Of a stretch of DNA of 28,876 bases, positions 1,182-28,876 are shown piece after piece. Source of the DNA: a virus. The stretch is taken from IMG/VR virus record IMGVR_UViG_3300046727_000437, positions 1 to 28,876 of that record. One strand, given 5' to 3'. How positions within the stretch are numbered: position 1 is the stretch's first letter; each line of letters starts with the position of its first letter. A model generated the notes under the pieces. The model was not told the origin of the DNA and searched no databases. It saw only the letters and a program-made list of their open reading frames with translations. The position numbers and the translations under genes are program-made.

Positions 1182-1195
1182 AGGAGGGCTGAACC

Positions 1196-1531
1196 ATGGC
1201 TGGCTATATCGGCTCTCTCGCCCCGACCAAGATCCTCTTGTCGAGCGGCAACACCAACACCCCGGCGGCCTTCTTCTCCACGACCACGATGTCGGCCAAC
1301 ACCACGGGCAACGTCGTGCCGGTCGGCATCTGGCTGATCCCGTCGACCGCCAACGTGGTGCTGCAAGCGAACAACGGCACAGCGATGGTCAATGTCGGCG
1401 TGAGCGGCGCGGGCGGATTTATCCTCTCCGACGGCATCAACGTGCAACTGCTGGCCTCGGCCAACGTCGCGGCGGTGACGCTGATCGGCATCGACGGCGG
1501 CATCCCGATCACCAACACGTTCAGCACGTGA
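1196..1531 (+). CDS. Small capsid-associated (decoration-like) structural protein
   Basis: A 111-residue protein beginning right after the capsid gene, with a strong ribosome site (GGAGGG, in AAGGAGGGCTGAACC before ATG) spanning the capsid stop. It is rich in Ala, Thr, Val, Asn and Gly, with alternating hydrophobic strands (VVLQANNGTAMVNVGVSGAG, VAAVTLIGIDGGIP) and no Cys, typical of small all-beta decoration or head-stabilising proteins. The composition resembles the 110-residue protein at 5418-5750. No named family is recognised; the role is inferred from position, strong translation signal and beta-rich sequence. Confidence 0.55.
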   Translation: MAGYIGSLAPTKILLSSGNTNTPAAFFSTTTMSANTTGNVVPVGIWLIPSTANVVLQANNGTAMVNVGVSGAGGFILSDGINVQLLASANVAAVTLIGIDGGIPITNTFST

Positions 1532-2503: not shown

Positions 2504-4480
2504 ATGGCCGTCACCGAACGGGTCAAGCAATACCACATCGTCAAAAGCTTCAAGGGGCTGAACACCAAGGCCAACCGGACGGCGATCGACCAGAACGAGT
2601 TCTCCTGGCTCGAGAACGCGATGCCGATCGGCGACAGCAACGTGCGGATCGTGCCGACGGTCTCGGCCCCGCTCACCCTGGCGCGCGATCCCGTGCTCTG
2701 GGACGCGCCGGTCTCGGCCCTCACCTCCGACAATGTCGAGTTGCACGACTACGTCTTCGCTTTCGAGACCAACGGGCGCTTGCAGGCTTACGACCTCACC
2801 ACCGCCGCGCTGCTCACCCTCGCCACGGTCGGGTTCTTCAACCCGGCGGGCGCGGAGATCACGCAATGGAAGAACGAGCGCATCATCATCGGCGACCCGA
2901 CCAAGGGGCTCTTTTCCTGGGACGGCAACGCGCTCGTCACGATCGGCTCGGTCGGCTTCATCGGCATCACCAATCCCGGCACCGGCTACACCAGCGCCCC
3001 CGTGGTGGTCATCGGCGCGCCGGGCGATCCCAATGGCGAGCAGGCGGTCGGCGAGGCGACGATCACCGGCAACTCAGTCGCGGGCGTGTTCCTGACCCAA
3101 CCCGGCACCGGCTACAGCGCCCCGCCCGCCATCAGCTTCACGGGCGGCGGCGGCACGGGCGCGACCGCCATCGCCAGCCTCATCACCTTCGCGACCGGCA
3201 CCTTGCAACTGGTCGTCGCGGCCGGCGGCAACGGCTACACCTCGACCCCGACGATCACCATCTCGGGCGGCGGGGGCAGCGGCGCGGCGGCCACGCCGAT
3301 CGTGTTCGGCAATTCTCTGACCTCGGTGGTGATGACCAATCCCGGCACCGGCTACACCGACGCCTCGACCGTAACCGCGACGGTGTCGGGCGGCGGCGGC
3401 TCGGGCGCGGTGCTGACCCCGGTGGTGACCAGCGACCCGATCAGCGACGTCGCAACCTTCTCGGGCCGCGTCTGGGTCGCGCAAGGCCGCATCATCACCT
3501 TCAGCGCCGCGGGCTCCTACAACGACTTCATCTCGGTCTCGGCGGGCAACTTCGTCGCCACCGACACGACCCTGCACGGCAACATCAACGCGCTCCTCGC
3601 CGCCAACAACTTCCTCTACTGGTGGGGGGCCGACTCGATCAACGTCTTCAGCGACGTGCAGGTCAACGGCACCACGGGCGCGACCGTCTTCACCAACACC
3701 AACATCTCGGCCTCGATCGGCACCGAGCTCGTGCACGCGATCTTCCCGTATTTCCGCAGCATTTTGTTCATGAACCGCTACGGGATCTATGCGCTGGTGG
3801 GATCGACCACGACCAAGCTGTCGGACGCGCTCGACGGCCTCTTCCCGCTGATCGACTTCTCCAAGCCGGTCACGGGCGGGCAGGTGCTGATCTACAACAT
3901 CCTCTGCGCCGCGTTCAATTTCTACTACATGGACCCGGTGCGAGGGACGATCCCGCTGCAGGTCGTGTTCTTCGACAAGAAATGGTTCCTGACCAATCAG
4001 GGCGCGATCAACCTGACCACCAGCATACCGTTCCGCGGCCTCATCCACCTTTACGGCACGGGCGGCACCAACCTCCTCAACCTCTACACCGACACTGTCA
4101 GCGCGATCGCCTCGAAGATGCAGATGGCGCTCAGTCACATCGGCGATCCGGTCAGGGACAAGCAGGCGCTGAAGTTCGGCATCGAGGTGACCTCGTCGAT
4201 CGGCGTGGCGCTCGAGGCGACCATCGATTCTGAGATCCGGCAGAGCCCGCTCTATCCCTTCAACACCGTGATCAACTGGATCAACAACAGCAGCCAGGTG
4301 ATCGGCTGGTACAACAACAGCCTCGTCACGCTCTACTGGCTGGGCGGCTACGGCTACCAGCTGTTCAAGACCGACGCGCAGCAGAACGGCAAGTATTTGG
4401 GGCTGACGATCACGAGCAACGCGGCGCAGTTCACCCTCAACACGATCGAGTACGAACTCGAATATGGAGCGCGCTTTTAG
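2504..4480 (+). CDS. Large tail nozzle/stopper-like protein with four Gly-rich repeats
   Basis: A 658-residue virion protein beginning 3 bases after the adaptor stop. The N-terminal motif KSFKGLNTKANRT...NEFSWLENAMP (about 14-42) is shared by large podovirus tail proteins that follow the adaptor; predicted role is the tail nozzle or tail tube. Residues about 155-307 hold four degenerate repeats of the form NPGTGYT-AP-V-ISGGGGSGA, a beta module that recurs in phage surface proteins and is probably an insertion. The C-terminal half returns to a beta-rich aromatic sequence ending ELEYGARF. The next gene starts at the base after its stop. Nozzle is a context-based call; a tail hub or stabiliser is possible. 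Confidence 0.5.
   Translation: MAVTERVKQYHIVKSFKGLNTKANRTAIDQNEFSWLENAMPIGDSNVRIVPTVSAPLTLARDPVLWDAPVSALTSDNVELHDYVFAFETNGRLQAYDLTTAALLTLATVGFFNPAGAEITQWKNERIIIGDPTKGLFSWDGNALVTIGSVGFIGITNPGTGYTSAPVVVIGAPGDPNGEQAVGEATITGNSVAGVFLTQPGTGYSAPPAISFTGGGGTGATAIASLITFATGTLQLVVAAGGNGYTSTPTITISGGGGSGAAATPIVFGNSLTSVVMTNPGTGYTDASTVTATVSGGGGSGAVLTPVVTSDPISDVATFSGRVWVAQGRIITFSAAGSYNDFISVSAGNFVATDTTLHGNINALLAANNFLYWWGADSINVFSDVQVNGTTGATVFTNTNISASIGTELVHAIFPYFRSILFMNRYGIYALVGSTTTKLSDALDGLFPLIDFSKPVTGGQVLIYNILCAAFNFYYMDPVRGTIPLQVVFFDKKWFLTNQGAINLTTSIPFRGLIHLYGTGGTNLLNLYTDTVSAIASKMQMALSHIGDPVRDKQALKFGIEVTSSIGVALEATIDSEIRQSPLYPFNTVINWINNSSQVIGWYNNSLVTLYWLGGYGYQLFKTDAQQNGKYLGLTITSNAAQFTLNTIEYELEYGARF
2966..3426 (+). 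repeat. Four tandem degenerate coding repeats (PGTGYT...GGGGSGA)
   Basis: Four units of roughly 38-45 codons inside the nozzle-like gene, each starting with (N/Q)PGTGY or GGNGY and, in units 2-4, ending in GGGG(S/T)GA. DNA echoes include repeated CCCGGCACCGGCTAC. The repeat number could vary by recombination; the module type is found in exposed loops of virion proteins. Confidence 0.75.
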
Positions 4481-17345: not shown

Positions 17346-17654
17346 GCCGCCACCATACAGGAAGACGAATTATTGACGCCAATAAAAGTGATGCGGCGGA
17401 AATCCGCGACCGGCGCTTCGGGCCGGAATCGCAGACCTAGACATGATGGCTGAATTGTGGTGCCGTAAAGCACAACGGCCCTCTGATAAAGGGCCGTTGC
17501 GTAGAAGAGCCAAGGACGTTTTCGGAGCGTTTTGGCTGTCAGGGTAGTGTTTTGGTCCCCAGTATGGTTCCGGACGAAACGCTACCGGACGCCCGCTCCA
17601 AAAGTCAATGGCTTTTCTACTGGGATTTCCCCGCAGGAACTCAGGAGAAAACGC
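17346..17654. other. Non-coding divergent control region
   Basis: The 309 bases between the leftward zinc-ribbon gene and the rightward replication gene hold no convincing gene. They contain a palindromic box TATTGACGCCAATA (17371-17384) also found inside a virion gene, a perfect 10-bp hairpin (17473-17499), and an AAAAG/CTTTT dyad near 17600. Promoters for both directions probably lie here, but no textbook -35/-10 pair was seen. Confidence 0.5.
17473..17499. terminator. Perfect 10-bp hairpin (intergenic terminator-like)
   Basis: CAACGGCCCT (17473-17482) and AGGGCCGTTG (17490-17499) pair perfectly around a 7-base loop (CTGATAA). The stem-loop looks like an intrinsic terminator, but no U-tract follows on either strand. 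It could instead be an RNA processing site or a protein target in the divergent region. Confidence 0.5.
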
Positions 17655-19386: not shown

Positions 19387-19512
19387 TCAGCCTCCTTGGT
19401 TGGCCCAGATGGTCCCTCGAGGGGAGGCGGCGATGAAACGGTGGTCCGGGTCGGCCGGGCGCGCGGCGCAGGCGGACAGCCACAGGAGCAAGGCCAGGGC
19501 GAGGCAACGCAT
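19387..19512 (-). CDS. Small lipoprotein with lipobox (41 aa)
   Basis: A short gene coding for MRCLALALLLWLSACAARPA and 21 more residues. LSAC at 12-15 is a standard lipobox, so a lipidated mature peptide of 27 residues (starting Cys15) is predicted. AAAGGA lies six bases before ATG. Its stop is one base before the next start. Such tiny lipoproteins occur as outer spanin (Rz1-like) or superinfection-exclusion proteins; the spanin idea is weakened because no inner-spanin partner with typical features is clear. A 23-bp repeat lies inside its coding sequence. Confidence 0.55.
   Translation of the reverse strand: MRCLALALLLWLSACAARPADPDHRFIAASPRGTIWANQGG
19403..19425. repeat. 23-bp dispersed repeat with CCCTCGAGGG palindrome, copy 1
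   Basis: GCCCAGATGGTCCCTCGAGG plus GGA is identical to 20518-20540. The core CCCTCGAGGG is a perfect 10-bp palindrome. This copy lies inside the lipoprotein gene, about 20 bases upstream of the following gene's start. It may be an operator or other protein target. Confidence 0.7.
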
Positions 19513-19539
19513 ATGTATTCCTTTCGTGCCAACGAAGGC

Positions 19540-19554
19540 CATGATATATCATGC
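19540..19554. promoter_or_regulatory. Operator-like palindrome O1 in divergent region
   Basis: CATGATATATCATG is a perfect 14-bp palindrome between the leftward lipoprotein and the rightward ERF gene. With the next base it matches 12 of 15 positions of CACGATTAATCATGC at 21410-21424. The region is A/T-rich in a GC-rich genome and probably overlaps promoters for both directions. Confidence 0.5.
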
Positions 19555-19579
19555 TCCATGGATAGAGGAGCATAGAACG

Positions 19580-20323
19580 ATGAGCTTTCCCGAGATCGAG
19601 CTCTATGGCGACATGGGCCCGCTGTTCGCGGCGCTGGCCAAGGCGCAGGCGGAAATCAAGGGCGCGCTGAAGGACGCGGTCAACCCGCATTTCAAGTCCA
19701 AGTATGCCGATCTCGAGAGCACCTGGCAGGCGTGCCGCGGGCCGCTCTCGGCGAACGGCCTGGCCGTGATCCAGTCGCCGTTCTCGGAGGGCGGCAACAT
19801 CGGCGTGGTCACCATCCTGGGGCATGCATCGGGCGCGATGATCTCGGGGCGGCTGGTGGTCGCGCCGATGAAGTTCGACGCGCAGGGAGCGGGCAGCACG
19901 CTGACCTATCTGCGGCGCTACGCGCTGGCGGCGATGGTCGGGGTCGCGCCCACCGACGACGACGGCGAGGCCTCGGTCGGGCGGCCGGTCAATGGGAAGG
20001 GCCGCGAGGCCGCGCCGCCGCCCCCGCCGGCCCCGCCCGAGTTGCAGTATGACCCGGTGACGGGCGAACTGATGCCGCAGGCGCTGCCCTACGCGGGCGA
20101 CTACGTGAAGTTCGGCCGCGTCTTCGTCGACGCCATCAAGACCGCCGAGAGTCTTGCCGAGCTCAACCGGTGGGAGAGTCACAACCGGGAGACGATCGAC
20201 GGCGGCAAGGAGCGCCTGCCCAAGGCCTACAACTCGCTCCAAGAGGCGATCGACAAGCGCCGCCTGCAACTGTGGGAAGAAAGCCGGGACGAGAAACCGT
20301 CCAACCCGCTGCTGGGAGGCTGA
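19580..20323 (+). CDS. erf: ERF-family single-strand annealing protein
   Basis: A 247-residue recombinase. ATG 19580 follows GAGGAG. The ERF core spans about residues 15-135: AVNPHFKSKYADLESTWQAC, GLAVIQSP, SGAMISGRLVVAP, and the hallmark GSTLTYLRRYALAAMVGVAP followed by TDDDGEA. ERF proteins anneal complementary single strands for phage homologous recombination and genome circularisation. After a Pro hinge (APPPPPAPPE), the C-terminal part (FVDAIKTAESLAELNRWESH) is a helical domain probably for partner contact. It forms an operon with a small protein and the YqaJ exonuclease. Probably controlled by palindrome O1 just upstream. Confidence 0.85.
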   Translation: MSFPEIELYGDMGPLFAALAKAQAEIKGALKDAVNPHFKSKYADLESTWQACRGPLSANGLAVIQSPFSEGGNIGVVTILGHASGAMISGRLVVAPMKFDAQGAGSTLTYLRRYALAAMVGVAPTDDDGEASVGRPVNGKGREAAPPPPPAPPELQYDPVTGELMPQALPYAGDYVKFGRVFVDAIKTAESLAELNRWESHNRETIDGGKERLPKAYNSLQEAIDKRRLQLWEESRDEKPSNPLLGG

Positions 20324-20324
20324 C

Positions 20325-20555
20325 ATGGCCGTCATCAGGAAGAAGGCGCGCACGCCGCCCGAACTCTTGTCTCTCGAAGAGCTCGGACTCTTGTGCGGGA
20401 TGCTGGCCTCTCTGGTGGAGGAGGCGCTCGCCGATGCCACGGACGGCATCGTTCCCGGCAAGAGGTGGCAGCGCGCGGCGCTCGCGGTGCTGCGGCGGCA
20501 GGAAAGGTGGCGACGCCGCCCAGATGGTCCCTCGAGGGGAAAGGTGCGCGCATGA
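20325..20555 (+). CDS. Small protein between ERF and exonuclease
   Basis: A 76-residue protein with good ribosome site (GGGAGG) overlapping the ERF end. It has a helical acidic middle (LSLEELGLLCGMLASLVEEA) and a basic tail (AVLRRQERWRRRPDG). It ends in ATGA overlap with the exonuclease gene, so translation of all three is coupled. It might be a helper of the recombination pair. The second copy of the 23-bp repeat lies in its last codons. Confidence 0.5.
   Translation: MAVIRKKARTPPELLSLEELGLLCGMLASLVEEALADATDGIVPGKRWQRAALAVLRRQERWRRRPDGPSRGKVRA
20518..20540. repeat. 23-bp dispersed repeat with CCCTCGAGGG palindrome, copy 2
   Basis: Identical to 19403-19425. It lies at the end of the gene between ERF and exonuclease, 12-34 bases upstream of the exonuclease start, so a bound protein or RNA fold here could affect exonuclease expression. 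Confidence 0.7.
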
Positions 20556-21208
20556 ACGGCGATCCCAGATCCGGCCCGGCGCACGACGCCTGGGTCCAGG
20601 CAAGGCTGGGCAAGGTCACCGCCTCGCGGGTGGCCGACGTCATGGCCCAGACCAAGAAAGGCCCCTCGGAGCGCCGGAGCCACTATCTGGCCGAGTTGAT
20701 CGCCGAAAGGCTGACCGGACTGCCCAAGGACCAGCCGCTCACCGGGGCGATGCTCTGGGGCCTGGAGACCGAGCCGCTGGCGCGCAACGCCTATGAGGCC
20801 GCGACCGAAACCCGGGTCTGGGAAACCGGCTTCGTGCGCCACCCGGAGATCCTCATGGCCGGCTGTTCCCCGGACGGTCTCGTCGGGCTTGATGGTTTGA
20901 TCGAGATCAAATGTCCGCAGTCGCTGACCCATGTCGAGACGCTGATCGCCGGGGCCGTGCCCGAGCGCCACCGCGCCCAGATCCAGTGGCAGTTGGCCTG
21001 CACCGGGCGGCAATGGTGCGACTTTGTCTCGTTCGATCCGCGCATGAGCGGGAAGCCGCGGCTCTTCATCGACCGCGTGGCGCGCGACGACGCCCAGATC
21101 ACCCTCATGGAGGAGCAGGTGTCGCTGTTCCTGGCCGAGCTCGAGGGGCTGATGACCTTCCTGACCGGGGCGCGGCAGGATTATCTGGACACCGCGATCC
21201 CCTTTTGA
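20552..21208 (+). CDS. YqaJ-like phage exonuclease (lambda Exo type)
   Basis: A 218-residue nuclease. Motifs in order: GKVTASRVADVMA (about 17-29), MLWGLETEPLARNAYEAA (about 67-84; catalytic Glu), AGCSPDGLVG (about 107-116; metal-binding Asp), LIEIKCPQS (about 120-128; the E-x-K pair), and QIQWQLACTGRQWCDFVSFD (about 145-164). This is the PD-(D/E)xK arrangement of YqaJ/lambda exonucleases, which degrade one strand from double-strand ends so that an annealing protein can pair them; ERF two genes upstream is the partner. ATG overlaps the previous stop (ATGA). Stop lies four bases before a convergent gene's stop. Confidence 0.88.
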   Translation: MNGDPRSGPAHDAWVQARLGKVTASRVADVMAQTKKGPSERRSHYLAELIAERLTGLPKDQPLTGAMLWGLETEPLARNAYEAATETRVWETGFVRHPEILMAGCSPDGLVGLDGLIEIKCPQSLTHVETLIAGAVPERHRAQIQWQLACTGRQWCDFVSFDPRMSGKPRLFIDRVARDDAQITLMEEQVSLFLAELEGLMTFLTGARQDYLDTAIPF

Positions 21209-23552: not shown

Positions 23553-24004
23553 GATCCGGCATCATCCTTGCCCGCTTGCCACAGCGCCGCCAGCGCAAAG
23601 GGCAGGTAGCGCCGCCGCTCCTCGTCCAGCCCCGCCACCATCCACGGGTGATCCTCGATCCATTGCAGCGCCGCACCCCAACCCCCCCCCTCCGGGGGGC
23701 CCCAGGGGGGAGCGTTCGGGGGGATGATCGGGGACGCCCCTCCGATCGGCGGCACCAGGGTCGCCGCCGGCACGCCCAGCGCCGCCGCCAGCCTGATGAG
23801 ATTGGCCGGATCGGGATAGCTCGTGCCGCGCAAATAATGCCCGATGCGATCGCGATTGCGCGCCACCGCATAGCCACGCTTGTCCTTGATCGTCCCCCAG
23901 ATCCGCGCCGCCAGCTGCGAGGCGTTGAGCCCTTGCCGCGCCATCGCCGCCTTGAGCGCCGCCGCAAACGCCTGGCGCATCGGATCATCCGGCCGCCGGC
24001 TCAT
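23549..24004 (-). CDS. XRE-family repressor-like regulator
   Basis: A 151-residue protein starting MSRRPDDPMRQAFAAALKAA at ATG 24004 (ATGA overlap with the upstream gene). ARQGLNASQLAARIWGT (about 20-36), then NRDRIGHYLRGTSYPDPANL and IRLAAALGVPAATLVPP form the full XRE five-helix DNA-binding domain. A Pro/Gly-rich linker coded by long C and G runs leads to a C-terminal helix (FALAALWQAGKDDAG). Without a LexA-like protease part it is not a cI-type self-cleaving repressor; a Cro-like or early/late switch role is suggested. Confidence 0.75.
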   Translation of the reverse strand: MSRRPDDPMRQAFAAALKAAMARQGLNASQLAARIWGTIKDKRGYAVARNRDRIGHYLRGTSYPDPANLIRLAAALGVPAATLVPPIGGASPIIPPNAPPWGPPEGGGWGAALQWIEDHPWMVAGLDEERRRYLPFALAALWQAGKDDAGS

Positions 24005-24143: not shown

Positions 24144-24165
24144 GGCATTCAAAGAACTGAATGCC
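24144..24165. terminator. 7-bp hairpin at end of cassette array
   Basis: GGCATTC (24144-24150) and GAATGCC (24159-24165) pair perfectly around 8 bases. It lies immediately after the leftward array gene ending at 24171, and the array's fifth ATG sits at its foot (24165-24163) without a following long gene. Possibly an attenuator between the array and the regulator genes. Confidence 0.45.
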
Positions 24166-24170
24166 ATGGG

Positions 24171-24488
24171 TCAGCCCTCCTCGATCGCAAAGTGCTTCAG
24201 CAGCGCGTCCTGCGCGTCCGCGCCCTCGAGATAGGCGCGCGCCTCTTTCGCGCTCAGGACCCGCAGCCCAGAGCCGCCGTTCCAACTGTTGCGATCGATG
24301 CTCACCGCCCACATCGAGCGGGCCCCGCCCCGCCCGGCCAGGAACCACGCCCCCTTGCGGGTCAAGTAAATCCCCGTCTCGTGCCAGTCGAAATCGGTCA
24401 CGCCGACACGGCAGGGCAGCAGCGCCACCAATGTGGCCGTCGATGTGTCGTAAACCTTGCCGTCAACAATCCGCCTGATCTTGGCCAT
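24171..24488 (-). CDS. Conserved-style phage hypothetical (array gene 5)
   Basis: A 105-residue protein: AKIRRIVDGKVYDTSTATLV, HETGIYLTRKGAWFLAGRGG, then SAKEARAYLEGADAQDAL. The order (R-I-V-x-G-K-x-Y-D-T; E-T-x-x-x-x-R-K-G-x-W-F; A-x-x-x-L-E) is a pattern seen in small phage and plasmid proteins of unknown role. It starts at a junction GGAGGGCTGACCCATGGCC and ends in EEG*, as its neighbour does. Confidence 0.6.
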   Translation of the reverse strand: MAKIRRIVDGKVYDTSTATLVALLPCRVGVTDFDWHETGIYLTRKGAWFLAGRGGARSMWAVSIDRNSWNGGSGLRVLSAKEARAYLEGADAQDALLKHFAIEEG

Positions 24489-24491
24489 GGG

Positions 24492-24740
24492 TCAGCCCTC
24501 CTCGATCTCTGGCGCCCAGCCATCAACCGGCCCAGACCCCCCAGATGCGCCGCGACGCTCGGGGCACACCTTGACGGCCTTCACGGCTTTGGCTCCGGTG
24601 CCCGCGAAGTGTTCGGCGTAAATCGCCATTGCTTCGTCGGCGGTGCGCGCGTGGCCGATGATGCCGGCCATGTGGTCGGCGTCCGCGTACACGGGCGCTG
24701 CGGTGGGGTACTCGGGTGTCTCGTTCCATTTGCCGGCCAT
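24492..24740 (-). CDS. Array gene 4, small hypothetical protein
   Basis: An 82-residue protein (MAGKWNETPEYPTAAPVYAD; then RTADEAMAIYAEHFAGTGAK). N- and C-termini (MA..., EEG*) are set by the repeated junction. A helix with DEAMAIYAEHF is the most structured part; the end is Gly/Ser/Pro-rich. No family recognised. Confidence 0.5.
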   Translation of the reverse strand: MAGKWNETPEYPTAAPVYADADHMAGIIGHARTADEAMAIYAEHFAGTGAKAVKAVKVCPERRGASGGSGPVDGWAPEIEEG

Positions 24741-24743
24741 GGG

Positions 24744-25043
24744 TCAGCCCTCCGCCGATTGTTTTTGCAGAGACCGCGCCGCCTTCAGCGCGGCCGCGAA
24801 GGTCGCGTGGGAACTCATCTCGTTGCTCCCGACGCCCCACTTGCTGTGCCAATGCACCATCACCAGGAACGGGCGCTTGCGCTCGACATCCTTCCAGCGG
24901 CTCGTGTTGCGGTACGTCAGGTGCTGGATGTAGATGAACTCGCCATGGGCGGGTGACTTGACCTCGGGGATCCGGCTCCACTCGATCCCCTCGACCCCGG
25001 GCGCGGTGCGCGCCAAAACATAGAGGTTGCGTTGCTGGGCCAT
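24744..25043 (-). CDS. Array gene 3, small hypothetical protein
   Basis: A 99-residue protein with aromatic strands (RNLYVLARTAPGVEGIEWSR; HGEFIYIQHLTYRNTSRWKD; PFLVMVHWHSKWGVGSNE) and a terminal helix (TFAAALKAARSLQKQSAEG). It looks like a folded alpha/beta protein. Start and end follow the repeated junction (MA..., AEG*). Function unknown. Confidence 0.55.
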   Translation of the reverse strand: MAQQRNLYVLARTAPGVEGIEWSRIPEVKSPAHGEFIYIQHLTYRNTSRWKDVERKRPFLVMVHWHSKWGVGSNEMSSHATFAAALKAARSLQKQSAEG

Positions 25044-25046
25044 GGG

Positions 25047-25313
25047 TCAGCCCTCCCCTGCCGCCGCTCGTTCATTCGACCACGCCTCGACCTCGGCGGG
25101 CGTCATCCAGACGATGCCGCCGCGTGCGATGCCGTCCTCGATCTCGCGCACCCAGATCGCGGTGACTTTGCTCATGTCCGCGACGTCCTCCGCGAGCGCC
25201 TTGGCCCGTGCGGCGTGCGCGTTCTCGGCCATCACGATGTAACGGCGAACAGTGTGCTTCCTCTTGTACGGCTCGCGGTTATGCACGAACGACACGCGGT
25301 ACATCTGGGCCAT
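25047..25313 (-). CDS. Array gene 2, small hypothetical protein
   Basis: An 88-residue protein: MAQMYRVSFVHNREPYKRKH, TVRRYIVMAENAHAARAKAL, then VTAIWVREIEDG. The strand-strand-helix-strand order with RRYIVMAENAHAARAKA resembles small phage proteins carrying a Y-x-V-x-A-x-x-x-x-A-x-x-K-A core. It ends GEG* at the repeated junction. Function unknown. Confidence 0.55.
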   Translation of the reverse strand: MAQMYRVSFVHNREPYKRKHTVRRYIVMAENAHAARAKALAEDVADMSKVTAIWVREIEDGIARGGIVWMTPAEVEAWSNERAAAGEG

Positions 25314-25316
25314 GGT

Positions 25317-25544
25317 TCAGCCCTCCTGCGCGATCGATGCGACGCGCGACCGCGTCAGGCTGTCCATCATCCGGTCGATGCCGTCGGACGATCCCGCCCA
25401 ATAGGCCGCGTCAACCGCGTCCTGAACGCGCCACAGGGCCAGCTGGGTCCCGAGGGCGTCGCCGCCCGCCAGCAACTCCCGGACCTTTGCCAGGGCCGCC
25501 AGCGCGACCAGCGAACGGTGCTCCAAATGCGAATAGGGTGTCAT
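25317..25544 (-). CDS. Array gene 1, small helical protein
   Basis: A 75-residue protein (MTPYSHLEHRSLVALAALAK, VRELLAGGDALG, WRVQDAVDAAYWAGSSDGID), all helical. It is the first gene after a leftward promoter at 25658-25632 and has an AAGGAACC site. It ends QEG* at the first copy of the repeated junction. Function unknown. Confidence 0.55.
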   Translation of the reverse strand: MTPYSHLEHRSLVALAALAKVRELLAGGDALGTQLALWRVQDAVDAAYWAGSSDGIDRMMDSLTRSRVASIAQEG

Positions 25545-25558
25545 GTCTTCGGTTCCTT

Positions 25559-25571
25559 CCCCCTCCGGGGG
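25559..25571. promoter_or_regulatory. Short GC hairpin in the 5' leader of array gene 1
   Basis: CCCCC-TCC-GGGGG lies in the untranslated leader just upstream of the ribosome site GGAAGGAACC on the - strand. It could influence ribosome loading. Confidence 0.3.
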
Positions 25572-25631
25572 ACCCCCAGAGAGCTTTCCGTGCCTCGCCG
25601 CGTGCGGTATTGCCGCGGCATCAGAGTGATG

Positions 25632-25658
25632 TCTATAGCGTGATCAATCGTGCGTCAA
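25632..25658 (-). promoter_or_regulatory. Leftward promoter with operator-like site O3 in the spacer
   Basis: On the - strand TTGACG (25658-25653) and TATAGA (25637-25632) are separated by 15 bases, CACGATTGATCACGC, which match O2 at 13 of 15 positions. The spacer is short for sigma-70, so activation or repression by a factor binding it is plausible. It should drive 25544 leftward to 22212. Confidence 0.55.
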
Positions 25659-25852: not shown

Positions 25853-25879
25853 TACCGATTGCCGATGGTCATCATCAGG
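25853..25879 (-). promoter_or_regulatory. 27-nt conserved leader element with mini-ORF, copy 1
   Basis: On the - strand CCTGATGATGACCATCGGCA plus ATCGGTA is identical to 27358-27332. It reads ATG ATG ACC ATC GGC AAT CGG TAG, a seven-codon ORF (MMTIGNR) whose stop lies at the ribosome site of the 53-residue gene, 15 bases from its ATG. Suggests translational coupling or a leader peptide. Confidence 0.6.
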
Positions 25880-25920
25880 ACGGGCCATACCCGCCGACGG
25901 GGATCACTCCCCGTTTCGAC

Positions 25921-26760
25921 CTATGCCGCAACCCGCTGGACCATGCTGTCGCGGTGTTCGGGCAAGGCCGCCCGAACGACCATGCCGGAGGTGTCCCGCT
26001 TCGCCTTCATCCCCTTGGGCGTCAGCCCCACAACCTTGCCCTTCGGATCGAGAAACCTCAGGTCGTGCTTGTCGCCGTCGATCACCGCAAAGCCGTGAAA
26101 CACCGCAGGGCGCTCTTCCGCCGTGCCCGCAAAGATGGCCGCCACGTTGTGACCCTGCGCCAGCAGCGGCAAAGCCTTGTCCAGATTGCTTTCCGACAGC
26201 GAGAAAGTCAGATCGTAATTCGCCGGCAATGGCCGCGAGAACCGGATCCAGTTCTTGGTGTAGTCCAGGAACTGAACCGTGGGGAAAGCCGAGAAAATGG
26301 TGTGATTGCCCGCGACGACCTTCAGCCCGGATACCCGCGATAACTCTTTCGCAAAGGCCTTGTCGACGGCATATCGGATACCCTCGTACGCAATGTCGCT
26401 GCTCCCATTGGGGCGCACCGCAAGCTTCAGCCTCGCACGCTTGGCCGCGCGCGCCGCCGCTGCAATCGCACTCATCATCTCGGCCATGTAAGCCGCGCGC
26501 TCGGTCATGAAGTACCGCGCCTTGCGCTCCCGGCTGTCGCGCACGCTGTTCGTACCCGTCGCACGGCTCACCATGGCCGCTTGCCCGCTCTCGCGACCCA
26601 GACACAAGGCAATGCAACCCGGCGACGCGTGCGGGCAAAGATTGCCCACGCCACCGCTCGACGCCGGCGCCATGTAGTTGATCGCGTTCAGGTACCCAAA
26701 CCCGCGCGCCTTCACAGCCTTCGGATTGTCCATCGAGAAAAATCTGGGAAATTGCCGCAT
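25921..26760 (-). CDS. GP88-like phage protein
   Basis: About 279 residues from MRQFPRFFSMDNPKAVKARG (ATG 26760, GGAG eight bases upstream; ATG 26778 six codons earlier is an alternative). The motif VGNLCPHASPGCIALCLGRE with three cysteines, followed by ARYFMTERAAYMAEMMSAIA, RLKLAVRPNGSSDIAYEGIR, and FLDYTKNWIRFSRPLPANYD, matches the GP88 family first noted in actinobacteriophages, whose role is unknown. The C-x-x-x-x-x-x-C-x-x-x-C cluster suggests a metal or iron-sulphur site. It follows hairpin element A. Confidence 0.65.
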   Translation of the reverse strand: MRQFPRFFSMDNPKAVKARGFGYLNAINYMAPASSGGVGNLCPHASPGCIALCLGRESGQAAMVSRATGTNSVRDSRERKARYFMTERAAYMAEMMSAIAAAARAAKRARLKLAVRPNGSSDIAYEGIRYAVDKAFAKELSRVSGLKVVAGNHTIFSAFPTVQFLDYTKNWIRFSRPLPANYDLTFSLSESNLDKALPLLAQGHNVAAIFAGTAEERPAVFHGFAVIDGDKHDLRFLDPKGKVVGLTPKGMKAKRDTSGMVVRAALPEHRDSMVQRVAA

Positions 26761-26808
26761 CGGATCTACTCCGCTCATCGGGCCGGCACTGCGCCGCTCC
26801 CTCCTATG

Positions 26809-26866
26809 CCCTTAAGCCTCGCTACGGTCACCCGTGCGAGGCTCGAAGGGAATGATGCGCCGCCTA
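26809..26866 (-). ncRNA. 58-nt stop-proximal hairpin element, copy A
   Basis: On the + coordinates GCCTCGC (26816-26822) pairs with GCGAGGC (26836-26842) around a 13-base loop, flanked by CCCTTA and AAGGG that also pair. The element starts at the TAG stop of the small gene at 26864. It aligns without gaps to copy B at 27401-27458 with a compensatory change in the stem and a 21-nt identical flank. Confidence 0.6.
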
Positions 26867-27070
26867 GTCCTGCAGCAGCGCCATGTTGCGCGCATCGAAC
26901 GCCTTGGCTGTCGCCGCGTCGCGCCACGCGCCACAACCGTTCTCGCCGTCCAGCATCTCGCGCGCCGTCGCCGCGCACTTGCCGCGCCCGCCTTCCACCG
27001 TGACCTTCATGCCTGCAAAGGCCTGCTGCAGCGCTTTCTTGATCGCGCGATTGCGGATTGCCGTGGTCAT
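26864..27070 (-). CDS. Small basic hypothetical protein (68 aa)
   Basis: MTTAIRNRAIKKALQQAFAG, KVTVEGGRGKCAATAREML and GENGCGAWRDAATAKAF. GGGGAGG lies six bases before ATG 27070; the frame opens earlier inside the preceding gene, so the internal start is chosen. Basic N-terminal helix; two Cys. Its stop TAG belongs to hairpin element A. Function unknown. Confidence 0.5.
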   Translation of the reverse strand: MTTAIRNRAIKKALQQAFAGMKVTVEGGRGKCAATAREMLDGENGCGAWRDAATAKAFDARNMALLQD

Positions 27071-27071
27071 G

Positions 27072-27317
27072 TCAGTCCTCCCCATACGCTTTGTTGAGAG
27101 CAGCTTGGGCAAGCGCGCGATCTTCCTTTGTAAAAACGTTGTAATTCATCAAGGCTTCTAAGGCTTCAAGCATGTCAGTCGCGGCGGCGATGACATGACG
27201 ATCCTTTGGATCGTAAGTTATGGCGATATTCGCGCCGCTGCTTTCCGAAATTATCAATCCTTGGTCGCTCGAAGTAGCCGTCGCGTACCAAGGGCCGGGG
27301 GTGTGTGTGGTGGTCAT
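27072..27317 (-). CDS. HTPGPW-motif phage protein
   Basis: An 81-residue protein. MTTTHTPGPWYATATSSDQG, then IAITYDPKDRHVIAAATDML and EALEALMNYNVF fit a widespread group of small phage proteins with an N-terminal HTPGPW and a later D/N-x-x-x-I-A-A-A-x-x-(L/M)-(L/A)-x-A-L-x-x-L segment; the role is unknown. Start ATG 27317 follows AGGAGC and the 27-nt leader with mini-ORF. Base use is a little more A/T-rich than its neighbours. Confidence 0.7.
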   Translation of the reverse strand: MTTTHTPGPWYATATSSDQGLIISESSGANIAITYDPKDRHVIAAATDMLEALEALMNYNVFTKEDRALAQAALNKAYGED

Positions 27318-27331
27318 ATCCGGTGCTCCTT

Positions 27332-27358
27332 TACCGATTGCCGATGGTCATCATCAGG
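27332..27358 (-). promoter_or_regulatory. 27-nt conserved leader element with mini-ORF, copy 2
   Basis: Identical to 25879-25853 on the - strand. The same mini-ORF (MMTIGNR) ends here with TAA instead of TAG, and the stop overlaps the ribosome site TAAAGGAGC of the HTPGPW gene, 14 bases from its ATG. The stop codon is kept although its third base differs. Confidence 0.6.
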
Positions 27359-27400
27359 CGGTGCCTGCCTCCAGGACCGGCGTGATTGCCGCTTCCTGAC

Positions 27401-27458
27401 CCCTTAAGGCTCGCCACCATCACGTGAGCGAGCCGGTAAGGGAATGATGCGCCGCCTA
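27401..27458 (-). ncRNA. 58-nt stop-proximal hairpin element, copy B
   Basis: GGCTCGC (27408-27414) pairs with GCGAGCC (27428-27434) around a 13-base loop; CCCTTA and TAAGGG extend the pairing. Relative to copy A the second stem pair is swapped (C-G to G-C). The element starts at the TAG stop of the 58-residue gene at 27456 and lies in the leader region of the HTPGPW gene. Confidence 0.6.
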
Positions 27459-27632
27459 CCCCAGCGACGGCCCCAGTATGTAAGCATGCCGCGCCACACC
27501 CGGATTGCTCGCCTGCAACCCGCGCATGTACACCTCCGCCAGCGCCTTGCTGCTCGTGCGGTAAATGTAGGTCACCTCGTGCGGCGGATTGACCACCACT
27601 TTCCATTCCGGCTTTGTCGCTTGCTTCGCCAT
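27456..27632 (-). CDS. Small hypothetical protein (58 aa)
   Basis: MAKQATKPEWKVVVNPPHEV, TYIYRTSSKALAEVYMRGLQ, ending AYILGPSLG. GGAG lies about seven bases before ATG 27632, and a good promoter lies about 60 bases upstream, so the longer frame to 27704 is rejected. A strand-helix-strand fold is likely (VTYIYRTSSKALAEVY). First gene of the upper leftward operon. Function unknown. Confidence 0.55.
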   Translation of the reverse strand: MAKQATKPEWKVVVNPPHEVTYIYRTSSKALAEVYMRGLQASNPGVARHAYILGPSLG

Positions 27633-27688
27633 CGGTCTTCTCCGCCACCAGGCACTCGGCTTGATTGCCGCCGCCGTCCAATGATCAG

Positions 27689-27717
27689 ACTGTACCGTGT
27701 GCAATCGTGGGCGTCAA
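27689..27717 (-). promoter_or_regulatory. Leftward sigma-70-type promoter with O4-like spacer
   Basis: On the - strand TTGACG (27717-27712) and TACAGT (27694-27689) are 17 bases apart, the ideal spacing. The spacer carries CACGATTGCACACGG, matching O3 at 12 of 15 positions. It should drive the genes from 27632 to 25676. Confidence 0.6.
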
Positions 27718-28397: not shown

Positions 28398-28876
28398 CTC
28401 ACCCAACCCTCTCACGCCGGAAGCCCACGCTCTCTGTGCGCCCCACAGTACCAGAGGATCAGAAATGGTGCCGCTGTAAATTCGGGGGAAGGGTGGGGTG
28501 CACACGCACCAGCGCTCGCGGTCCCATCGCCGCGGCCAGCGCCCCGTGCCTGGCAACCGTTGCTCGAGGCCGACCGTCGGTCGGCGGCGACACTGCCGCA
28601 GTGGAGTTGTTGGCAGCTGCTATCCGCCCAGCGGCCCCACTGGCCCTCGATCGTTGACCAGCTCCTACAATGCTGCGGTGGATCTGTTGCTGGGGGCTAA
28701 TATGAGAAACAGATCAATTTATCTGAAATTAGGGGATTGATCAGATTCTCAGATAAGAGACACTGGCATGATATCTTTCCAGAACTAACCCCCAAGAATA
28801 CCAGACTACCCTAGCCCCCAGCAACAGATCCACCGCAGCATTGTAGGAGCTGGTCAACGATCGAGGGCCAGTGGGG
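28398..28876. other. Terminal non-coding region of mixed composition
   Basis: After the HNH start there are 479 bases without a supported gene. The first part is GC-rich (28398-28634); the last 242 bases hold an inverted repeat around an A/T-rich centre. Open frames crossing it lack ribosome sites and recognisable sequence. The sharp composition change suggests a junction with foreign or chimeric DNA. Confidence 0.55.
28635..28876. repeat. Perfect 65-bp inverted repeat with 112-bp A/T-rich centre
   Basis: 28635-28699 and 28812-28876 are exact reverse complements over 65 bases; the right arm ends at the window edge, so the repeat may be longer. The centre (28700-28811) is A/T-rich and holds smaller dyads (GATCTGTT/AACAGATC; ATCTGA/TCAGAT). 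It could be a foldback assembly chimera at a contig end, a terminal hairpin, or a small inverted-repeat element. Confidence 0.85.

Follow-up and report, generated by a model that had tools for sequence, protein, structure and literature searches.

Why should two unrelated small genes of one virus end in the same stop codon and hairpin? The question is raised by the window analysed here (the whole stretch of DNA, a virus record of 28,876 bases), whose left end has a capsid gene (PHROG 9953) and whose minus strand carries a series of small genes, read leftward, that includes the hairpin elements. Our analysis suggests that each element is a copy of a linker that lies between genes and can be exchanged, in the early operon of a group of uncultivated phages. 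Its hairpin would insulate genes at the RNA level, and we put the probability of this reading at about 0.5.

Gene order around the elements

Read from right to left, the region consists of an HNH endonuclease gene, a promoter, gene A, element copy 2, genes B and C, element copy 1, gene D, a further hairpin, gene E and a second promoter. The endonuclease gene, recognised by PHROG hits, lies to the right of the promoter at the head of the variable region, which is sigma70-like (TTGACG-17-TACAGT, 27689-27717, minus strand). The promoter at the tail of the region is TTGACG-15-TATAGA (25632-25658, minus strand), and both are conserved in two contigs, L004 and L280. The genes between them also lie on the minus strand. 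Gene A (27456-27632) encodes a small protein with one homologue among viral contigs (L008, 54%), gene B (27072-27317) a protein starting with MTTTHTPGPW that belongs to PHROG 1273 and is of unknown function, and gene C (26864-27070) a protein of 68 aa, the 3' part of the gene being 95% identical to L280 at the DNA level. Gene D (25921-26760) is a member of the GP88 family (PF17338, PHROG 1617).

Sequence and fold of the two elements

Copy 1 (26809-26866, minus strand) is situated between genes C and D, and copy 2 (27401-27458, minus strand) between genes A and B. Direct reading of both copies bears out the preliminary description, according to which the two align without gaps, share an identical 21-nt flank and end two unrelated small genes with the TAG stop codon that this flank supplies. 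The flank occurs in no shuffled sequence (0 copies expected by chance), and the stop codons belong to gene C (26866-26864) and gene A (27458-27456), both on the minus strand. The distance from the first base of the stop codon to the start of the hairpin is 16 nt, and the hairpin spans 26850-26809 in copy 1 and 27442-27401 in copy 2.

A 7-bp stem in which a C-G pair becomes G-C had been described earlier. The change of the pair is confirmed but the hairpin is larger, with helices of 5, 7 and 3-4 bp. It is a compound structure of an outer helix (CCCTT/AAGGG, 5 bp), an inner GC-rich arm of 7 bp and an apical helix of 3-4 bp. The inner arm is AGCCTCGC/GCGAGGCT in copy 1 (type I) and GGCTCGC/GCGAGCC in copy 2 (type II). 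The loops diverge as noted before: the apical helices differ in their letters and bulge on opposite sides. Folding energies on the coding strand are -30.8 kcal/mol for copy 1 and -28.4 kcal/mol for copy 2, with z scores of -3.2 and -1.7.

Further copies of the element

The element is not confined to the window. A search with the gene C protein led to the related contig 3300046533_000883 (L280), where two more copies (copies 3 and 4) are present at positions 1072-1129 and 1622-1680, adjoining genes other than those next to the window copies. One L280 copy has CATCGTT in its flank and the other an extra C, and because of this one substitution and one insertion both were missed by exact patterns. 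Among the four known copies, the flank provides the stop codon in three and not in the fourth. A covariance-model search, proposed in the preliminary description, was carried out over 539 kb of phage loci with a model built from the four copies; it returned exactly these four at 85-91 bits (91.4 bits for copy 1 and 85.1 bits for copy 2), and the next best score was 20 bits.

Exact-pattern scans of IMG/VR viral contigs gave no genuine copies. The sole exact 18-mer match in these contigs (L003) is due to chance, with a covariance-model score of 18.9 bits, far under the true copies, and it reads as an SD plus start on the opposite strand. The three matches to the pattern CATCATTCCCTT-N-TTAAGGG in viral contigs are all unrelated. 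Of the capsid relatives (80 loci), 29 contigs were searched and showed no homology to the early region, a BLAST comparison of the region with 50,697 phage records gave no match, and no Rfam family reached its gathering score in the window or L004.

Evidence for selection on the pairing

All 12 core pairs are kept in all four copies. By the swapped pair, copies 1 and 3 are type I and copies 2 and 4 are type II, and each phage, the window and L280, has one of each type. The distribution of the two types suggests that the C-G/G-C swap was probably one old event. It had been proposed earlier that covariation argues for selection on structure. Selection on structure is supported, mainly by other evidence, namely the extra copies, a second hairpin family and the palindromes of a more distant phage; the single swap on its own does no better than shuffles, as the four-copy covariation score was equalled by 88 of 500 shuffles, and a single compensated pair is weak evidence.

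The second hairpin family is found 3' of the gene D stop codon (25897-25914, minus strand; flank GGTCGAA, stem ACGGGGA-GTGA-TCCCCGT). This GGTCGAAAC family also has members after stop codons in L004 and, with two copies, in L280, and changes on both sides affect three of its pairs. The more distant phage (L005) has a gene D homologue with 65% identity and two intergenic palindromes. These share exactly the same flanks (TTGATTGCAGTGCATG...CATGAGCGGCAATCACG), and their stems are fully paired in both but altogether different (CGGCGCCGAGCTCGGCGCCG and CCGCGGGCGCGCCCGCGG); one of the palindromes lies directly upstream of the gene D homologue. In L008, a hairpin of unrelated sequence comes after the homologue of gene A. 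The presence of hairpins at comparable sites in L005, in L008 and in the GGTCGAAAC family implies that a hairpin fills this place even where no sequence is shared.

If the hairpin had arisen by chance in an intergenic segment that was duplicated recently, and its pairing were not selected, the single variable pair of the main stem, which is no better than shuffles, would be accounted for. However, random filling of the 11 differing positions matches the stability of copy 1 in 0.2-0.5% of trials and that of copy 2 in 2-14% (permuted letters, 0.5% and 14%; 11 random substitutions, 0.2% and 2.4%), types I and II are maintained in both phages, and the analogous families are strongly compensated. 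This reading is already weakened and we regard it as very improbable.

Other hairpins were also observed. A strong intergenic hairpin, CAACGGCCCTCTGATAAAGGGCCGTTG, lies between divergent genes at 17473-17499 of the window and 10475-10501 of L010, with a conserved stem and differing loop letters. L008 has a repeated hairpin plus AAGGGGAAACC(G)AAATG before consecutive genes (2237-2285 and 2559-2600), a start-associated analogue.

The element as part of a probable exchangeable linker

The element extends into a longer conserved segment. Its downstream half, CATAGGAGGGAGCGGCGCAGTGCCG...GGAGTAGATCC followed by ATG (26761-26808, minus strand), is common to both L280 copies, with different genes after it. 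In three of the four copies, homology runs on through GCATAGGAGGGAGCGGCGCAGTGCCG to GGAGTAGATCCGATG, where the next gene has its ribosome-binding site and start. Between copy 1 and the L280 copies, homology covers the whole interval between the stop codon and the following start codon, and the genes differ on both sides. Stop codon, hairpin and ribosome-binding site thus appear to move as one linker, by which the phage would keep its gene-to-gene punctuation while the genes change.

Such change is visible between the two conserved promoters, where the window has genes A-B-C-D-E, L004 has D-E and the set in L280 is another one, with relatives of C and B among its genes. The element stands 3' of gene C in the window and is absent there in L280, the sequences diverging just past the stop codon. 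Gene D is preceded by the element in the window, and in L004 it lies directly behind promoter and leader without the element. The preliminary description had listed a recombination-boundary element among the possible roles, and this is supported by comparison of the window, L004 and L280, the three contigs from which exchange is inferred.

Gene loss in its simplest form was seen at another repeat nearby, which illustrates what repeats of this kind can do. The gene at 25047-25313 is flanked by two stop/SD/start junctions (GAGGGCTGAMCCATGGC), and exactly that gene is missing in L004, with one junction kept. A clean deletion was seen solely at this junction repeat, and what is seen around the element is gene turnover in L280 and L004. 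Stop/SD/start junctions of the form GAGGGCTGACCCATGGC occur between small genes in five copies at window positions 24163-25332 (minus strand) and once more at 1182-1200 (plus strand).

Because the linker is repeated, it could offer homology along which phage recombinases exchange or delete genes. Candidate agents of such linker-mediated exchange are encoded on the plus strand of the window: an ERF single-strand annealing recombinase (19484-20323; PF04404, E 5.8e-19) and, as its candidate partner, a YqaJ-type viral recombinase/exonuclease (20552-21208; PF09588, E 1.1e-28).

The presence or absence of the element behind the same gene, gene C, is also what a small non-autonomous mobile palindrome (REP/MITE-like) would produce, in which case flank and variable stem would form a selfish repeat that has spread with no function for the phage. 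Other small dispersed palindromes do occur in this phage group, for example TGGGGCCCCCGGAGGGGG at differing sites. However, all four copies of the element have the same orientation, lie between co-directional genes and are mostly fused to the next ribosome-binding site, and a mobile palindrome is unlikely.

It is less probable still that the element acts on DNA and not on RNA, as an operator or as a folded single-strand recombination site like integron attC. Its conserved structure, variable loop and location after ORFs in a cassette-like region would suit such a site. However, the arms form no symmetric operator, RYYYAAC/GTTRRRY boxes are not visible in the element by reading, and the PF00589 integrase was not found in the window, L004, L280 or L005, all of them incomplete contigs. 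An identification as an integrase/attC system was therefore rejected.

Possible role in RNA

The linker that we favour would start at the stop codon, fold in the mRNA as a GC-rich hairpin lacking a U-tract and, in three of four copies, extend into the ribosome-binding site of the next gene. The absence of a U-tract, noted in the preliminary description, was verified: the stem ends in AAGGG and is followed by CATAGG or GTCAGG. Of the features of a canonical intrinsic terminator, the GC-rich stem-loop after the gene is present and the U-rich tract directly after the stem is absent. The absence of this tract agrees with the earlier argument against a simple intrinsic terminator, and a terminator scan reported nothing terminator-like at either element. 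The sequence that separates the hairpins from genes B-E yielded no promoter. A complete stop is therefore unlikely, since an efficient terminator would silence genes B-E, and a partial terminator/attenuator, a 3'-end stabiliser or a processing site is more likely.

In the RNA, the hairpin may act as a U-less partial terminator/attenuator or as a 3'-end stabiliser that insulates consecutive genes from one another. Judged from sequence, the hairpins probably insulate neighbouring genes in the transcript and give recombination a site for swapping genes. If they do act in RNA, they are natural matched linkers, with the same flank and different stems, and would provide a direct test of U-less hairpins in operons.

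A leader mini-hairpin and the processing alternative

A mini-hairpin of 15 nt, GCGGCAATCACGCCG, is located a few nucleotides after element copy 2 (27378-27392, minus strand), and a variant with one mismatch, GCGGCAATCAAGCCG, just after the gene A promoter (27657-27671, minus strand). An exact or related version follows both promoters of L004 (L004 571 and 1943). The 16-mer formed by this leader and a leading A is present in 52 stretches of viral contigs. Seven of 48 distinct viral contexts have a promoter-like pair upstream at the right distance (one of the seven, in L136, looks weak), compared with 0 on the opposite strand and a background of 1.1%. Among the matches listed from cellular genomes (GTDB), none of 116 distinct contexts with an upstream TTGAC has a promoter at the right place, and a loop-only search (AATCAC with any stem) of unselected loci gave no more leader variants. 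Phage transcripts may carry this leader mini-hairpin as a conserved feature of their 5' ends, and the motif may then mark a 5'-end element that has not been described. The leader was observed about 9-13 nt after the -10 box in several unrelated contigs (L133, L134, L142, L151, L153, L155, L159, L108, L116 and L130). One of these, L134, also has a type II hammerhead ribozyme above the Rfam gathering score (2814-2879, minus strand).

The leader motif bears on endonucleolytic processing, the main rival of the insulating hairpin. The hairpin would then be a candidate site that is cut (RNase III-like) or that shields the upstream 3' end, and a new mRNA 5' end would arise before the next gene, at GCGGCAATCACGCCG. 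The elements sit inside an operon, the motif lies at putative transcript 5' ends in other phage contigs, and after copy 2 and both L005 palindromes it follows the hairpin without a recognisable promoter, all of which would agree with processing. However, copies 1, 3 and 4 have no exact leader motif downstream, and we consider processing rather unlikely.

A further idea is that the leader mini-hairpin CGGCAAUCACGCCG is a put/nut-like antitermination signal or an RNA-stabilising one, the U-less linkers being partial terminators which RNA polymerase then passes. We rate this combination as highly unlikely.

Other repeats and contig ends

The palindrome TGGGGCCCCCGGAGGGGG is dispersed over variable sites: near 23687-23705 and at 25559-25582 of the window (minus strand), at 2854, 3413 and 3589 of L010 and at 1947 and 3406 of L280. 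Inside genes it can read GPPEGG. A helix-turn-helix gene ends with it in L004 and not in the window or L280, and L004 lacks the leader copy at 25559-25582. Another repeat, CCTGATGATGACCATCGGCAATCGGTA, lies upstream of two different genes of the window, in the E region (25853-25886) and at gene B (27332-27365), both on the minus strand, and L280 has it upstream of its relative of gene B.

Three related contigs have foldback ends (window 28635-28699 / 28812-28876, L010 1-212 and L280 1-262), in which perfect inverted arms (65, 50 and 77 nt long, respectively) enclose a spacer of 108-112 nt and are complementary to the very last base. Between the window and L004 the spacer is the same, in opposite orientation, and the arms are different; in L280, near-identical arms enclose a different spacer. 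The foldback could be a terminal hairpin, a long palindrome or an invertible segment at a homologous place.

Comparison with known systems

Integron attC sites are structured, sequence-variable sites after the ORFs of an exchangeable gene array. The element resembles them in being a structured and variable site after the ORFs of such an array; however, no tyrosine recombinase was found, no conserved R boxes were seen and the flank is conserved on one side only.

According to a review, mycobacteria have U-less 'I-shaped' terminators no more than 50 bp from stop codons (PMC12288462), and termination at U-less hairpins is disputed (Czyz 2014, as cited in PMC12288462). The element likewise has a GC-rich hairpin within 50 nt of a stop codon, on the matching strand and with no U-tract. 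However, it is not located at an operon end and has a conserved 5' flank.

The closest known elements are the ESAS of Cluster K mycobacteriophages. ESAS/SAS are repeated intergenic elements in the non-structural half of the genes, in which an inverted repeat with a variable spacer is followed by a conserved stretch with an AGGAG core (PMC3203893). They lie between different genes in one orientation and sometimes include the upstream stop codon (PMC3203893). The element shares with ESAS the inverted repeats with a variable spacer upstream of genes of different families. However, the 13-bp SAS GGGATAGGAGCCC is absent from the window (0 matches at up to 2 mismatches), and the conserved part is tied to the stop codon upstream, at a greater distance from the start codon.

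For exchange, the closest concept is that of boundary sequences in mosaic phages, which are short, conserved and located between genes, and at which homologous recombination could swap modules (PMC3029335). As with these, the same linker is found between unrelated genes and homology stops at the gene boundaries. The boundary here differs in being a hairpin family of two subtypes that carries a ribosome-binding site. The linkers of the window are close to those already known from other phages.
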